31,539 nucleotides of DNA from positions 1 through 31,539 of the IMG/VR virus record IMGVR_UViG_3300030943_001853; one strand, 5' to 3'. Shown in pieces: positions 12,333 to 28,637 of the stretch. Source of the stretch: a virus. The notes under the pieces are model-generated. The model searched no databases. It worked only from the letters and a program-made list of their open reading frames with translations, and was not told the origin of the DNA. Numbering within the stretch: position 1 is the stretch's first letter; each line of letters begins with the position of its first letter. Both the position numbers and the translations under genes were made by a program.

Positions 12333-12810
12333 GCCACGAAATCAAGCTGTCAAGCTTCCCGAATACAGTATCATCCTTTATCGTTGGCGTAAGCCTGACC
12401 AATATTTTAATGAATGCGAGTAACCCAAACAATAGCTCCGCCCAATTCGATTTTAAAATGTCGAGCCAACTGGATGTAACCTCAATTGGTTTTATCAAAT
12501 CACCGTTTGCATCTCTTAAATCACCAACAACGGTTCCGGGATCATCAGTCAAAGAAGTGGTCGAGGCATCGTTTAACTGATCAGGAATTGCATTCTGAGC
12601 ATACAAAGAAGCTCCGGCACTCTCAAGCGATTGATCAGGCAAGGCAGCGACTTCCGGCATAGTAACTAAACTGTGGGGGATATCGCCCGCCTGACTGATT
12701 TCTACTACAGCTTTTTGCTGTTCATTGGTCGCATAGACCTTCGACTGCATGGCGGTGGCTACCACAACCAACATCAGTCCGATAATAAATTTCATTTTCA
12801 AACTTTTCAT
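12298..12810 (-). CDS. Lysis-block protein with signal sequence and membrane helix
   Basis: A 170-residue protein with an N-terminal signal (KFIIGLMLVVVATAMQSKVYA) and a C-terminal hydrophobic segment (WAELLFGLLAFIKILVRLTP, about 125-145) ending in a basic tail (LQKKKSA). Between the two is a polar linker. It is encoded between the lysozyme and the spanin-like gene. Two hydrophobic segments and location suggest a holin or lysis accessory, but the signal-peptide form is atypical for a holin. Confidence 0.55.
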   Translation of the reverse strand: MKSLKMKFIIGLMLVVVATAMQSKVYATNEQQKAVVEISQAGDIPHSLVTMPEVAALPDQSLESAGASLYAQNAIPDQLNDASTTSLTDDPGTVVGDLRDANGDLIKPIEVTSSWLDILKSNWAELLFGLLAFIKILVRLTPTIKDDTVFGKLDSLISWLVPNLQKKKSA

Positions 12811-12829
12811 ATCAATTTTAAATTAAGTG

Positions 12830-13435
12830 TTAAACACGATTCATCCATCCGTAAAAAAATACCTCCTGATTTTCCGAGTTCCGGCAAATCTCAACGTATC
12901 GCTGAAACTGCAACCCGTTCATTACCTTCAGAAGTGTTTTGACAGTTCTTTCCTGCGAACGCCCAGGGTAATTAGCCGTGAGCATATAGGCATCGTAAGA
13001 CCTTAGCGTTTTATCGCCCAAGTCCCCATCATCAAGAATATTACTGTATATCTTTTGATTGTTGTTGAGCAAATTCAAAGCTTGCTGAAAGTAACGCGCT
13101 GCCGTTTTTGCCCCTTGGTTCACAGCCGTATCAAATATTTCTTCAGCAATTGCATATACCGGTATTTTATCGAGGCTTAAAGCCATCCAAAACACCTGAT
13201 AATAGAACTGGTAAACGCATTTTTTCAGATCGGAATCTCCCGACAAAACTTTTGAAAGCTGCATTTTATCCGTTTGTGCCTTGATCCGGTCGATAATCGC
13301 CCAACCTTCCCATTTCGGGAAATTGTTCCGGCTAATGCCTTTCCAGGTTTCACCGCCACGGTCGTTAGGATCGTTTGAATAGCTACCCTCAAACCCGATC
13401 AGCTTATCGAATGCACACAAGAAATACTCTGTCAT
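12830..13435 (-). CDS. Endolysin, GH108-family lysozyme
   Basis: A 201-residue N-acetylmuramidase-type endolysin of the GH108 (secretion-activator) family. The active-site block is clear at residues 14-30: GFEGSYSNDPNDRGGETWKG, with Glu16 as expected catalytic acid and the DP-D-GG-T pattern. The second half has the peptidoglycan-binding-like helix region IFDTAVNQGAKTAARYFQQA. There is no signal peptide, so export needs a holin. It overlaps the acidic-protein gene by 4 bases. About 200 residues is a usual length for the family. Confidence 0.88.
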   Translation of the reverse strand: MTEYFLCAFDKLIGFEGSYSNDPNDRGGETWKGISRNNFPKWEGWAIIDRIKAQTDKMQLSKVLSGDSDLKKCVYQFYYQVFWMALSLDKIPVYAIAEEIFDTAVNQGAKTAARYFQQALNLLNNNQKIYSNILDDGDLGDKTLRSYDAYMLTANYPGRSQERTVKTLLKVMNGLQFQRYVEICRNSENQEVFFYGWMNRV

Positions 13436-13911
13436 TTCCCAATATTTTTACGTGGTGCGTTTTTCTTTTTAGCCGATGACGATGCTTGTTCCTGTTTCTC
13501 TTCAGCGGCTTCAGCTTGTTCCGTTTCGGCTACTTTCTGAAGTTCACCGTCTTTAAGTTCAAAAACATCACCAGACTCAACATCTTCAACAGTATCGCCT
13601 TCCTGCAATTCAATTTCTTCAGCTTCTTCGACCTGAACTTCGTTATCTTCAGGTTTCCCGTCTCCACTTTCCGTCACATCGGTTTCTGAGTCAGAGATGA
13701 CCTCTTCAGGTTTCCCATCACCGGCATTCAGGCTTTCGGATTCATCATCATCATCCGGATCATCCCGGTGTTTGATTTCTACAACCGATCCAGTGTGATC
13801 TGCATAAGCTTGAGCTTCATCCAGATTAATGAAAGGAATATCGTTAACCACGTAAAGCTCCTGGGCGGCTGGCCGCCGGTCAAAATATCTTTGGATTTCT
13901 TTTTTATTCAT
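13432..13911 (-). CDS. Acidic low-complexity protein
   Basis: A 159-residue protein. Residues 1-50 look folded (RRPAAQELYVVNDIPFINLD), whereas the remainder is very acidic and low in complexity (DDPDDDDESES, repeated SGDGKPE motifs) and ends in a basic tail (KKKNAPRKNIGK). Located between an XhlA-like gene and the lysozyme with 2- and 4-base junctions. I do not recognise a family. Its highly charged make-up could suit a head- or lysis-accessory role, but this is a guess. Confidence 0.6.
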   Translation of the reverse strand: MNKKEIQRYFDRRPAAQELYVVNDIPFINLDEAQAYADHTGSVVEIKHRDDPDDDDESESLNAGDGKPEEVISDSETDVTESGDGKPEDNEVQVEEAEEIELQEGDTVEDVESGDVFELKDGELQKVAETEQAEAAEEKQEQASSSAKKKNAPRKNIGK

Positions 13912-24786: not shown

Positions 24787-25251
24787 TTAATTGTCTGATA
24801 TTTGACTAAATCCATTTGCTTTATTCCATGCCTTTGTACCTGCGTTTTCAGCCGATTTTTGGAAGTTTGCTTCCAGTCCCCTGAATTGCCTGATCAGTTC
24901 GTCGAGCTCATCAAGCGTGTATTTATTGAGCCGTTTCTTCAGGATGCTGCGGGCATCCATAAAAGCGTTAAACTTATCGAAGCTGGTGCCTTCATGTATG
25001 CCCGTGCGCTGTGCTATTGTCAGTACTATCGACCGTTTTTCCTTCAGCGCCATTTTTTCGGTTAATTGGCTCGATACATGTTCGATCTTATTTAATTGAT
25101 TGACAAGATCGGTGAGTTCAAGATCGTAAAGTTCGCGGGTGCTTTTTGTCCGGCCTTCGGTAAACGAATAGACGAGCTCGTGTCTGGAATCGGCGTCGAA
25201 TCCTTTTTTAGTGAGGATAGCCATCAGTTGGCGGTGTTTTGATTCGTTCAT
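24787..25251 (-). CDS. Mu gp16-like early protein
   Basis: A 154-residue protein starting MNESKHRQLMAILTKKGFD. The N-terminal region (KHRQLMAIL, DSRHELVYSFTEGRTKSTRE, ELTDLVNQLNKIE) has the layout of Mu gp16/DUF1018-like proteins; the C-terminal half is helical (DARSILKKRLNKYTLDELDE). The start at 25251 gives the ATGA overlap with the HAD gene stop. Function in the family is unknown, expected in the middle/early phase. I considered it as an Avd-type partner of the reverse transcriptase and found no support. Confidence 0.65.
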   Translation of the reverse strand: MNESKHRQLMAILTKKGFDADSRHELVYSFTEGRTKSTRELYDLELTDLVNQLNKIEHVSSQLTEKMALKEKRSIVLTIAQRTGIHEGTSFDKFNAFMDARSILKKRLNKYTLDELDELIRQFRGLEANFQKSAENAGTKAWNKANGFSQISDN

Positions 25252-25589
25252 ATCATTCCTCCTGCATACGCCTTCCAAAGTGGGAACTTGGCTTTATCAT
25301 CAATGTAATAATCGGCATATATCTTTCGGCAATTTGCTTTGTCTATAAAAGGAGCTTCGGGTAAATTGTCATTTATGGCATCAAACTCAATACCGTGGTT
25401 ACGGCAAAACTCAACGGCCTCGGTAAGGTATGCACGTTCTGGCAGGTCGGTTCTACATGTCCATAATATGAGTTTGTGACCGGCTTCCTGAAAGTGTGAA
25501 ATAGTATCAAAAGCCTGTGGTATCGGGTTCCCGATCTCAGGGAAACGATCTTCAGCTATCGTTCCATCAAAGTCGATTGCTAGTATCAT
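25248..25589 (-). CDS. HAD-superfamily phosphatase-like protein
   Basis: A 113-residue minimal HAD protein. Motif I is MILAIDFDGTIAED with nucleophile Asp6 and Asp8. LILWTCRTDLPER carries the motif II Thr. The acidic end is KIYADYYIDDKA. It resembles BT0820-type small hydrolases common in Bacteroidota and their phages. The substrate is unknown; nucleotide or 5'/3' phosphate processing of DNA or RNA is possible. Overlaps neighbours by 4 bases on both sides. Confidence 0.82.
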   Translation of the reverse strand: MILAIDFDGTIAEDRFPEIGNPIPQAFDTISHFQEAGHKLILWTCRTDLPERAYLTEAVEFCRNHGIEFDAINDNLPEAPFIDKANCRKIYADYYIDDKAKFPLWKAYAGGMI

Positions 25590-26290: not shown

Positions 26291-26593
26291 TTAAGTGAAT
26301 AAGTATCTTTCGTTTTCTACTATTATCGTTGTTGTGAAAGGAAACCCGTCTTCAGGAATCTGTTGTATCATTTCCCGCAAACCGCTGGACGAGGTGAATA
26401 CGATGTGATTTTCGTCCTTAAACGATATTTGAAGTTTTAAACATTTGCTTGATGAGCCTTTAAAGCATTTTGAATCTTCAATTTTAAAATGATGAACTAC
26501 GATTTCGCGGTTAAGTATTTTCGACATTTTTATTTTGTCGCCAACAAATGATTGTGATGTGATTTTTATATTGAATTGGTCAAAGCTTTTCAT
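26291..26593 (-). CDS. Small beta-rich protein coupled to reverse transcriptase
   Basis: A 100-residue protein whose start overlaps the reverse transcriptase stop (ATGA, 26590-26593), so the two are translationally coupled. Beta strands alternate with charged loops (VGDKIKMSKILNREIVVHHF, CLKLQISFKDENHIVFTSSS, PFTTTIIVENERYLFT), compatible with a small barrel. There is no Avd-like helical bundle. The coupling makes it a candidate DGR accessory factor; an ordinary phage role is equally possible. Family not assigned. Confidence 0.65.
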   Translation of the reverse strand: MKSFDQFNIKITSQSFVGDKIKMSKILNREIVVHHFKIEDSKCFKGSSSKCLKLQISFKDENHIVFTSSSGLREMIQQIPEDGFPFTTTIIVENERYLFT

Positions 26594-27540
26594 GCAAGCA
26601 ATTTCTTTAAGAGGTTTTTACTGTTACAATGCGCTGCCCAACCGTTATAACTGGCTATCGACTTTGCATTTCTATTTTTCTTCAGCATTCGTGCAAAATT
26701 CTGTTTAATTGATTTTCGTAAAAGTGTGTGCGTATGAAAAAAGACATAGCCAACGAAGTCAATACCTCTTTTTTCGACCGGAAATACCTGATAGTTTCCC
26801 TTAACCGTCAGTTTCAAATTATCCTGAAGGTATGTCCTGATTTCAGCAAGTAAGCCGTGCAAATAAGGCTTGGAGTCGGAAAGTACCACCAGATCATCAG
26901 CATACCGGAAGTAATATTTAACCTGCTTTTCTTCCTTCAGCCAGTGATCAAAATAAGTCAGATAGAAATTAGCCAGGTATTGTGATAGGTAGTTTCCTAT
27001 AGGCAACCCTGAAGTACTATCTATAATTTCATCCAGCAACCACAATAGGTCATTGTCTTTAATCTTCCGGCGCAGCAATTGTTTTAACGTGTCGTGATCA
27101 ACCGAAGGATAAAACTTCTTTACATCCAGCTTTAAGCAATACCGGGTATTTTCAACATCGTTTAAAGCCCGTTTAACTGCCCTTGCGGCGGCATGTATGC
27201 CTTTTCCTTTTATACATGAGTAAGTGTCTGTTGTGAAAGTTGAGACAAATACAGGCTCCAAAATATTCATCACCGCGTGATGGGTGATCCTGTCAGGGAA
27301 GTATGGCAGCCGGAAGATGATTCGTTCTTTTGGCTCGAAGATCGTAAACGTTGTGTATGGCGATGTCTTGTAAGTTTTGTTCACCAACATTTCGTGCAGT
27401 TGCTGAATGTTTGCTTCGCGGTTTTTGTCGTGTTGAATCACTCCAGGTTGTTTTGCTTTTCCTTTCCGCGCAACGGCATCAGCCATCTGAAGGTTTTCGA
27501 TGCTGCTGATTATATCGTACAAATTATTGATCCGTTTCAT
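26590..27540 (-). CDS. DGR reverse transcriptase
   Basis: A 316-residue reverse transcriptase of the diversity-generating retroelement type. Motif A has CLKLDVKKFYPSVD with Asp139. The DGR-typical motif GLPIGNYLSQ is at 178-187, where group II intron and retroviral enzymes have a QG form. The catalytic YADD is at 213-216 (YFRYADDLVVLSD) and RGIDFVGYVF at 258-267 is motif E-like. No maturase or endonuclease domain exists, and the length is near that of Bordetella phage DGR enzymes (about 330). With the TR transcript it makes adenine-mutated cDNA that replaces the VRs. It lies 97 bases downstream of the TR, in the same direction. Confidence 0.95.
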   Translation of the reverse strand: MKRINNLYDIISSIENLQMADAVARKGKAKQPGVIQHDKNREANIQQLHEMLVNKTYKTSPYTTFTIFEPKERIIFRLPYFPDRITHHAVMNILEPVFVSTFTTDTYSCIKGKGIHAAARAVKRALNDVENTRYCLKLDVKKFYPSVDHDTLKQLLRRKIKDNDLLWLLDEIIDSTSGLPIGNYLSQYLANFYLTYFDHWLKEEKQVKYYFRYADDLVVLSDSKPYLHGLLAEIRTYLQDNLKLTVKGNYQVFPVEKRGIDFVGYVFFHTHTLLRKSIKQNFARMLKKNRNAKSIASYNGWAAHCNSKNLLKKLLA

Positions 27541-27616
27541 GCCTTTGCTTTTAAAAGATCGTTTTCACTTTCGTTACCAACGCTCTTGAAAATGTGTTAT
27601 TTTTTGCCATGTGGGC

Positions 27617-27744
27617 AGGGTTTATGCTGCGAACTATGCAATTGCGCGAACTGACATTCGTATTCGTGTAGTTGTAATTCGAATTCGAATTCGAGAAACT
27701 GGAACCTGAAGACAAAACTGACAGCACTTGCAGCATACAACCTT
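27617..27744 (-). ncRNA. DGR template RNA cassette with closing stem
   Basis: The TR is enclosed by an inverted repeat: TATGCTGC (27623-27630) and GCAGCATA (27730-27737) are perfect complements. After one bulged base (27738), GGTT (27619-27622) pairs with AACC (27739-27742), with two further pairs outside, 14 pairs in all. The transcript (minus strand) would form a stem holding the TR as a loop. DGR template RNAs are known to need flanking structure. A 60-residue open frame across it is only the TR read as protein. Confidence 0.6.
27638..27718 (-). repeat. DGR template repeat (TR)
   Basis: An 81-bp template repeat. On the minus strand it reads as LSSGSSFSNSNSNYNYTNTN followed by VSSRNC; 21 adenines (T on plus) lie in 14 codons. 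Aligned to VR1 (offset 195), 16 of 21 adenine sites differ and all 60 other sites match. Aligned to VR2 (offset 616, over 79 bases), 15 of 21 differ and all other sites match. This adenine-only pattern is the DGR signature. Confidence 0.97.
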
Positions 27745-27751
27745 ATTTTAT

Positions 27752-28168
27752 TTATTCGGAATACAAGAAGTAATCGACGTACTCAGCCTCAAATTGCTCT
27801 GCGATGTACCTGGCCTTTTCCGATGAATCGGTGCAAAGGCGCGAACCGACAGCCGTACGCGTGCAGTCGTAAGTCGAACCCGAACCCGAGAAACCGGAAC
27901 CCGAAGACAAAACCCCAAACCAAGGGAAGTACTTATACTGATCATCATCACTCCAATCAGGCTTCCATCCATTATTAATCGCTTTGTAAATAATCATGAG
28001 CTTGTAAGCGGCTAATAACGGTTTTCTGAACTCTTCGGGGATCATTGACAGATCAGGAACGCTTGCCTGATCGATGTTCAACTGTGTGCAAGCATCTTCG
28101 AAAGTTTTGATAGTCCTGAAATCAAATTCGACGCTGTCTTTTTCTACATTTTTTGGTGTTGTAGTCAT
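27752..28168 (-). CDS. DGR target protein 1
   Basis: A 138-residue variable protein. The conserved N-terminal part has RTIKTFEDACTQLNI (19-33) and WKPDWSDDDQYKYFPWF (68-84). The variable repeat covers residues about 86-112 (LSSGSGFSGSGSTYDCTRTA, then VGSRLC). Unusually, about 26 conserved residues follow (SSEKARYIAEQFEAEYVDYF), so the VR is not at the extreme C-terminus. DGR target proteins commonly use a C-type-lectin fold for variability; the GSRLC end recalls that, but the fold is unproven. No signal peptide or transmembrane helix. It ends 34 bases before the TR. Ligand unknown. Confidence 0.9.
   Translation of the reverse strand: MTTTPKNVEKDSVEFDFRTIKTFEDACTQLNIDQASVPDLSMIPEEFRKPLLAAYKLMIIYKAINNGWKPDWSDDDQYKYFPWFGVLSSGSGFSGSGSTYDCTRTAVGSRLCTDSSEKARYIAEQFEAEYVDYFLYSE
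27820..27831. other. Short palindrome at the 3' border of VR1
   Basis: CCGATGAATCGG forms a 4-5-bp hairpin one base beyond the VR1 end (27833). In the Bordetella phage DGR a hairpin just downstream of VR promotes retrohoming. VR2 has only a weaker, wobble-containing counterpart at the same place (about 28240-28253). Confidence 0.5.
27833..27913 (-). repeat. DGR variable repeat 1 (VR1)
   Basis: An 81-bp copy of the TR, in frame in target 1. It differs at 16 positions, each a TR adenine. Changed plus-strand TR sites are 27642, 27643, 27652, 27657, 27658, 27663, 27664, 27669, 27673, 27678, 27684, 27685, 27690, 27691, 27700 and 27707. Confidence 0.97.
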
Positions 28169-28172
28169 GTTC

Positions 28173-28637
28173 TTAGTTGTTGATAGTTAAAAATTGTTTG
28201 TATAATTCATTGAATTGCTTTGCGGCATAGTTGCTCTTTTCCTCAGACTCGAAGCAAAGGCGCGAACCGACAGTCGTAAACGCGGAGTTGTAAACCGAAG
28301 ACGAATCCGAGAAACCGGAACCCGAAGACAAATTAAACCACGGCCAGTATTTGTACTGACTTTTATTGTCCCAGTCAGGAACCCACCCCTGATTAATTGC
28401 TGTCACAACAATTTTAAGTTTCTTATAGGCGGCTTCATCAGGTGTATCATTTTCCTGAATTACAGTTTCAGGATCAATGCCCAATTCCTCACAAGCATCT
28501 TCGAATGTTTTGATGTCATCAAAGTTTCGTTTCTTGAAAAATTCCTCTCCAACTGATTCTTCTAAAACTTTCCGACCCCATTCTGTTGATTCTATGTGGA
28601 GCCTTTTTACTTCTGATCTTTTAAGTTTTAATTTCAT
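28173..28637 (-). CDS. DGR target protein 2
   Basis: A 154-residue paralogue of target 1, directly upstream with 4 bases between. It has an extra basic N-terminus (MKLKLKRSEVKRLHIES), then the shared DIKTFEDACEELGI (41-54) and WVPDWDNKSQYKYWPWF (85-101). The VR covers about 102-128 (LSSGSGFSDSSSVYNSAFTT, then VGSRLC) and a conserved helix-like tail (EEKSNYAAKQFNELYKQF) follows. Tandem duplication lets one TR diversify two proteins. Soluble by appearance; cellular or virion location cannot be read from sequence. Confidence 0.9.
   Translation of the reverse strand: MKLKLKRSEVKRLHIESTEWGRKVLEESVGEEFFKKRNFDDIKTFEDACEELGIDPETVIQENDTPDEAAYKKLKIVVTAINQGWVPDWDNKSQYKYWPWFNLSSGSGFSDSSSVYNSAFTTVGSRLCFESEEKSNYAAKQFNELYKQFLTINN
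28254..28332 (-). repeat. DGR variable repeat 2 (VR2)
   Basis: A 79-bp copy of the TR, in frame in target 2. It differs at 15 positions, all TR adenines (plus-strand TR sites 27642, 27643, 27652, 27657, 27663, 27664, 27667, 27669, 27678, 27679, 27684, 27685, 27691, 27700, 27707). The changes mostly differ in base from those in VR1. Confidence 0.97.

Follow-up and report, generated by a model that had tools for sequence, protein, structure and literature searches.

Diversity-generating retroelements (DGRs) are a known type of gene cassette in which error-prone copying of a fixed template into target genes keeps the encoded proteins changing, and most of those carried by phages are explained by the switching of tail receptors. 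The locus analyzed here, with one reverse transcriptase (RT) gene and three related repeats, raises the question of whether it is such an element, whether its family is active, how it might work without Avd, the usual DGR helper protein, and which kind of protein it diversifies. The window comprises 31,539 nucleotides and is an entire IMG/VR contig, not an excerpt from a host genome. All elements of the cassette lie on the minus strand and are listed here in the direction of transcription, with the template repeat abbreviated as TR and the variable repeats as VR1 and VR2:

28173..28637, minus strand: target gene 2, an ORF of 154 aa that carries VR2 (phrog_11581, E=1e-30)
28254..28332, minus strand: VR2, with 15 differences from the TR, all at A
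28273-28307, minus strand: mutagenised core of VR2, placed by an offset of +616 from the TR
27752..28168, minus strand: target gene 1, an ORF of 138 aa that carries VR1, paralogue of target 2 (phrog_11581, E=5e-28)
27833..27913, minus strand: VR1, with 16 differences from the TR, all at A
27852-27886, minus strand: mutagenised core of VR1, placed by an offset of +195 from the TR
27638..27718, minus strand: TR, aligned with 34 relatives
27657..27691, minus strand: TR core, from site-by-site counts over 187 TR/VR pairs
27541..27637, minus strand: spacer RNA in the interval between TR and RT (alignment, RNAalifold, pair counts, Rfam RF03020)
26590..27540, minus strand: DGR reverse transcriptase of 316 aa (phrog_1423, E=1.5e-128; PDB match; tree)
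26291..26593, minus strand: predicted OB-like protein of 100 aa, proposed partner of the RT (conserved place, RT fusions, homologues, OB-fold neighbours)

An earlier, sequence-only reading of this DNA had counted 16 differences between TR and VR1 and 15 between TR and VR2, every one of them at an adenine of the TR. Our realignment of both VRs returned the same numbers (16/16 and 15/15) and no difference at a non-adenine TR position, each mismatch being a T on the plus strand and thus an A on the coding minus strand. As the TR holds 21 adenines among its 81 positions, the probability that mismatches placed at random would all fall on A is 6e-13 for VR1 and 1e-11 for VR2. These probabilities, the base-substituted control scans described below and the recurrence of the pattern in 148 loci leave practically no room for the notion that TR and VRs are simple paralogous repeats with an adenine pattern arisen by chance, which we regard as ruled out.

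The RT itself points in the same direction. Its best PDB match is chain 8ub7_A, annotated as 'Reverse transcriptase' (E=2e-44 versus 1e-18 for a group II maturase), an entry that we take to be the BPP-1 RT complex. In a tree of 57 RTs, the window RT grouped with the DGR-type RTs, next to those of loci L003 and L010, while the two group II RTs split off at a support of 100/100; BPP-1 sits on a long branch in this tree, and the exact placement of such branches is uncertain. Both motifs named by the sequence-only reading, YADD and GLPIGNYLSQ, are present, the latter being the SQ motif of DGRs (PMC3521204). The window element is a genuine DGR with an RT, a TR and two VRs. Two observations concern other RTs of the dataset: the 63.8-kb contig of L019 encodes a second RT with 49% identity to the window RT (G013:C1:20750-21694), and the annotated RT of the crAss-like phage cr115_1 (L163, 449-1471) contains nine in-frame stops under translation table 11, presumably due to stop-codon reassignment in that phage.

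The family scan included 80 viral contigs with an RT of at least 73% identity and 80 bacterial contigs. The bacterial contigs are nearly all from Bacteroidota, including Flavobacterium, Elizabethkingia and Pedobacter, and the nearest metagenome-assembled genomes belong to Prolixibacteraceae; the DGR family is widespread in phages and prophages of this phylum. TR and VR lie beside the RT at constant spacing in 148 of the 160 related loci, most of which have two VRs and some three. Over 252 distinct TR/VR pairs, 3631 mismatches fall on adenine and 32 on other bases. Because the scan penalises non-adenine mismatches, it was rerun on 40 loci, letting every base in turn stand for A, which gave 75 hits for A, none for C, one for T and 17 for G; most of the G hits lie at the repeats already found with A, now read from VR to TR. 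One third VR (L064, 606-694) lies approximately 4.2 kb upstream of its TR, away from the usual pair of targets.

Alignment of 187 TR/VR pairs on the common TR motif separated the TR adenines into two classes. At the adenines from -39 to -5 all four bases occur in the VRs, while those at -55, -54, -48, 0, +7 and +11 are replaced by G (or T at +11) in 98-100% of VRs. In the window, the fixed ends correspond to positions 27707 and 27700 on one side and to 27652, 27643 and 27642 on the other, with 27643 and 27642 sharing one end, where the window TR has drifted from the common form. VR1 and VR2 have 13 differing sites in common, with the same base at seven, and five of these common sites lie at the ends or where the difference between TR and VR is fixed family-wide. 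As five of the differences in each VR are constant throughout the family, they are no independent traces of mutagenesis. The adenine pattern that had been taken as evidence of past mutagenic homing is therefore real, but part of it consists of constant boundary differences, and the counting of adenine mismatches overstates mutagenesis at the repeat ends.

In BPP-1, mismatches between TR and VR at the 3' end fix the direction of transfer (PMC3240598). By likeness to these, we read the fixed mismatches that flank the core of about 35 nt as probable limits of the replaced tract; alternatively, strong selection on the protein might hold these sites constant. Recent VR changes in relatives fall centrally. 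The TR core contains 16 adenines in 10 codons (six AAY, two TAC and two ACG), which allow 2.9e9 possible proteins and make a stop codon impossible.

To what extent the family is active can be seen from near-identical relatives whose contigs come from different metagenomes. L047 and L048 differ at 13 sites over 6.0 kb, all 13 at TR-adenine sites of one VR, and L047 and L050 differ at 13 sites over 6.9 kb, 12 of them at TR-adenine sites of another VR; between L019 and L020 the agreement is partial, as nine of 21 differences fit the pattern. Assembly consensus might blur variants, but it could not create such a pattern at VR adenines. Near-identical relatives that differ almost solely at these sites indicate that the family is active, and the location of the changes in different VRs indicates that the VRs have been rewritten separately and recently.

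For the window itself, the sole near-identical contig, L002, showed no VR change: over 9.7 kb, both VRs included, the two sequences are the same, and this comparison gives no sign of recent activity in the window's own phage. This identity would fit a dead or dormant copy with old VR differences. However, the RT is intact with its catalytic YADD, the TR, spacer RNA and flanks match those of active relatives, and zero non-adenine differences have accumulated, all of which make dormancy improbable.

Between TR and RT lies a strongly conserved spacer of 97 nt, for which covariation argues for a folded RNA: 96% of the alignment cells are paired and 55 double changes were counted, compared with at most 45% and 14 in slid controls. 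The percentage of pairing leans upward since the structure was derived from the same alignment, and the double changes are the telling part. The Rfam model RT-17 (RF03020) matches window positions 27544-27622 over its full length with E=1.3e-4 and 36.4 bits, under the gathering score of 40.4, which a relative, L059, exceeds slightly with 40.7 bits. Behind the VRs, the 40 nt following 270 of them gave no conserved folding signal (mean z -0.6), the signal in the window being weak, and no conserved hairpin or cruciform of the kind known from Avd-type, BPP-1-like DGRs was found there.

The cassette had been described as complete and as ending at 26590. Completeness holds for the RT, the TR and the two VRs, but an Avd gene was not found and one member had been missed, as the cassette extends to 26291 and includes an ORF of 100 aa whose start overlaps the RT stop (ATGA). 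Pfam scans and profile searches over the whole contig gave no match to PF05635 or PF22296, while BPP-1 was detected by the same PF22296 search, and an Avd gene hidden elsewhere in the contig was thereby rejected. Among 48 family records, bAvd occurs in two, in each case next to an additional, divergent RT. In the sister clade, some DGRs have neither the OB-like protein nor, as far as looked, Avd.

The 100-aa protein is well conserved and is encoded directly behind the RT in most of the 132 loci that have it. In L121 and L156, both proteins form a single reading frame. Its profile also matches the C-terminus of the RTs of Hankyphage (E=2e-10) and, weakly, of BT-TP2 (E=4e-6), and a homologue follows the RT as a separate gene in the archaeal virus vir525 (E=7e-23). 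The AF2 model (pLDDT 86.5) predicts an OB-like protein: the nearest folds are nearly all OB folds, many of them binding ssDNA (RuvBL2 external domain, LEF-3, mitochondrial SSB, POT1 and PRD1 P12), at Z values of 4-6.5, a level that unrelated folds also reach and that by itself is no proof of the fold; Foldseek E-values were non-significant. Sequence searches gave no convincing relative of solved structure for this protein or for the targets. Small ORFs behind the RT of BPP-1 (Bbp4), the E. eligens plasmid, Versailles and crAss LMMB were considered as kin of the OB-like protein and dropped, as hmmsearch returned no match.

Fusion to the RT and adjacency make a role together with the RT likely, and most likely the OB-like protein takes the place of Avd, where it would hold the template RNA or the cDNA. 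An ordinary DNA-binding protein of the phage could also have come to lie behind the RT by chance, without any role in diversification, given that phage operons are dense and that in L139, L151 and L161 another gene stands between the RT and the retained OB-like gene. We consider this unlikely in view of an adjacency conserved over very different hosts, including that of an archaeal virus, and of RT fusions of at least two origins. As a separate observation, the RTs of the clade of L139, L151 and L161 are mostly accompanied by a target of lectin-like type close to tail genes. With its conservation and its occasional fusion to the RT, the partner protein offers a concrete candidate for how DGRs lacking Avd work. 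Our literature search, which did not extend to Wu et al. 2018, found no OB-fold protein linked to DGRs. According to a review (PMC10053308), Wu et al. 2018 suggested an additional protein associated with DGRs that has no Pfam family; this unnamed accessory may be the OB-like protein, which would limit its novelty.

Concerning the targets, the paralogues belong to phrog_11581 and are closely packed, target 1 beginning 4 bp past the end of target 2, which is itself separated by 22 bp from the gene before it on that strand. About 128 related loci have a target homologue upstream of the RT. The proteins have 130-155 aa and no other domains, and the VRs are internal to the coding sequence instead of C-terminal. 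The AF2 model of the target consists largely of helices, and the VR falls in loops of low confidence (pLDDT 59-77); fold searches gave no match in the PDB, and among viral models only uncharacterised phage proteins. The VR core can be aligned with the final 30 residues, a hairpin, of a C-type-lectin-like tail-region target from the sister RT clade (hhalign E=2e-7). The mutated module may thus be common to both, in proteins that otherwise differ.

Relatives have the cassette behind MuA-like (phrog_310), MuB-like (phrog_296) and DUF3164 genes of its own strand, with the head genes downstream of it on the opposite strand. Targets are present in 17/17 loci with the MuA-like cluster and in 29/29 with the MuB-like cluster. 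The window supports the description of its phage as Mu-like with DUF3164, a MuF-like protein and a tail sheath. It encodes no transposase, and the assignment rests partly on relatives: MuA and MuB are absent from this truncated contig, a MuB-like gene occurs in L024, which shares eight genes with the window, and a MuA-like gene was found in other family members. Elsewhere in the window lie a tail-fibre gene with several repeated modules (4-2100), in which no TR-like sequence is reported, and, three genes downstream of the cassette, a HAD-type phosphatase like BT0820 (25248-25589; NF046079, E=1e-32, below cut-off).

Two relatives carry, beside the OB-type DGR, a second DGR with a divergent RT (31-34% identity), Avd and its own TR and VR:

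G045:C1:3748-5567 and 34628-35572: the two DGRs of L079
G037:C1:366-1981 and 12783-13730: the two DGRs of L060

In L079, the target of the second DGR is a gene of 751 aa beside tail-module genes, so tail diversification appears to be served separately there. Considering this, the position in an early operon and the location of the Hankyphage DGR by the tail, we favour early, non-virion proteins as the targets, a role such as was proposed for one Quimbyvirus target (PMC8008677), at a probability of about one half. A role as receptor-binding or other virion proteins, which would switch the host range as in BPP-1 and merely be encoded early, is a less likely alternative. It draws on the resemblance of the VR core to the C-terminal hairpin of the sister-clade lectin-like targets, which neighbour tape-measure genes, and on the fact that phage DGR targets are mostly tail proteins (PMC8144416). 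In relatives, however, these genes belong to the early operon and lie at a distance from the tail module; they encode small proteins; an Avd-type DGR attends to the tail side in L079; and in Hankyphage, a Mu-like phage that shares the genome plan of these relatives, the DGR is found by the tail.

Altogether, we think it quite probable that the window belongs to a DGR family of Bacteroidota phages that replaces tracts of about 35 nt, uses an OB-like substitute for Avd and acts on early, probably non-virion targets. The TR and its folded 3' spacer would be transcribed together, and the RT would make cDNA with random bases opposite the TR adenines, as in the known DGR mechanism. In VR1 or VR2, independently of one another, this cDNA would replace about 35 nt at the centre, the fixed mismatches on both sides marking the ends of the tract. 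The OB-like protein, translationally coupled to the RT, would hold the template RNA or cDNA in Avd's stead. The hypervariable loop of the early targets could then bind a changing partner, perhaps a factor of the host or of a rival phage. The DGR is of a known type, with the paired early targets and the probable OB-type partner as new features.

More tentatively, there may be a sub-class of DGRs that have an OB-fold protein, either separate or as part of the RT, in place of Avd and that hypermutate pairs of small early proteins with a role inside the host cell, sometimes beside an Avd-type tail DGR. If true, such proteins might for instance counter host defences that change or phages that compete. 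The paired early targets, and the occurrence of both kinds of DGR in one phage, suggest a need for fast protein diversity after entry.

Among known systems, BPP-1 shares with the window the RT, a TR upstream of it, adenine-directed change and 3' mismatches between TR and VR, and 8ub7, the best PDB match of the window RT, is probably the BPP-1 RT. It differs by Avd in place of the OB-like protein and by the single tail target Mtd, whose VR is at the 3' end of the gene with a hairpin behind (PMC3240598), whereas the VRs of the window are internal with no conserved hairpin behind. The Quimbyvirus DGR (Benler et al. 2021, PMC8008677) likewise has a target outside the structural module, for which a function in phage-host conflict was proposed; unlike in the window, one structural and one non-structural target lie far apart, they are of C-type lectin type and the RT extends over three frames. 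Caudoviricetes vir525 (BK063673) has the OB-like gene directly behind a DGR-type RT as in the window, but is an archaeal virus in which the neighbour upstream bears a tail-protein annotation. Hankyphage (Bacteroides phage p00, BK010646) is, like the window family, a Mu-like phage of Bacteroidota, with an RT whose C-terminal domain is homologous to the OB-like protein; its record gave no bAvd match, though one gene is labelled Avd in PMC12135933. In contrast to the window, the OB-like domain is within the RT chain, the DGR occupies the genome's right end, and one very large target lies at the tail end. Diversification of the Hankyphage VR was demonstrated in culture (PMC12135933), which makes the proposed accessory role of the OB-like protein testable in this phage.
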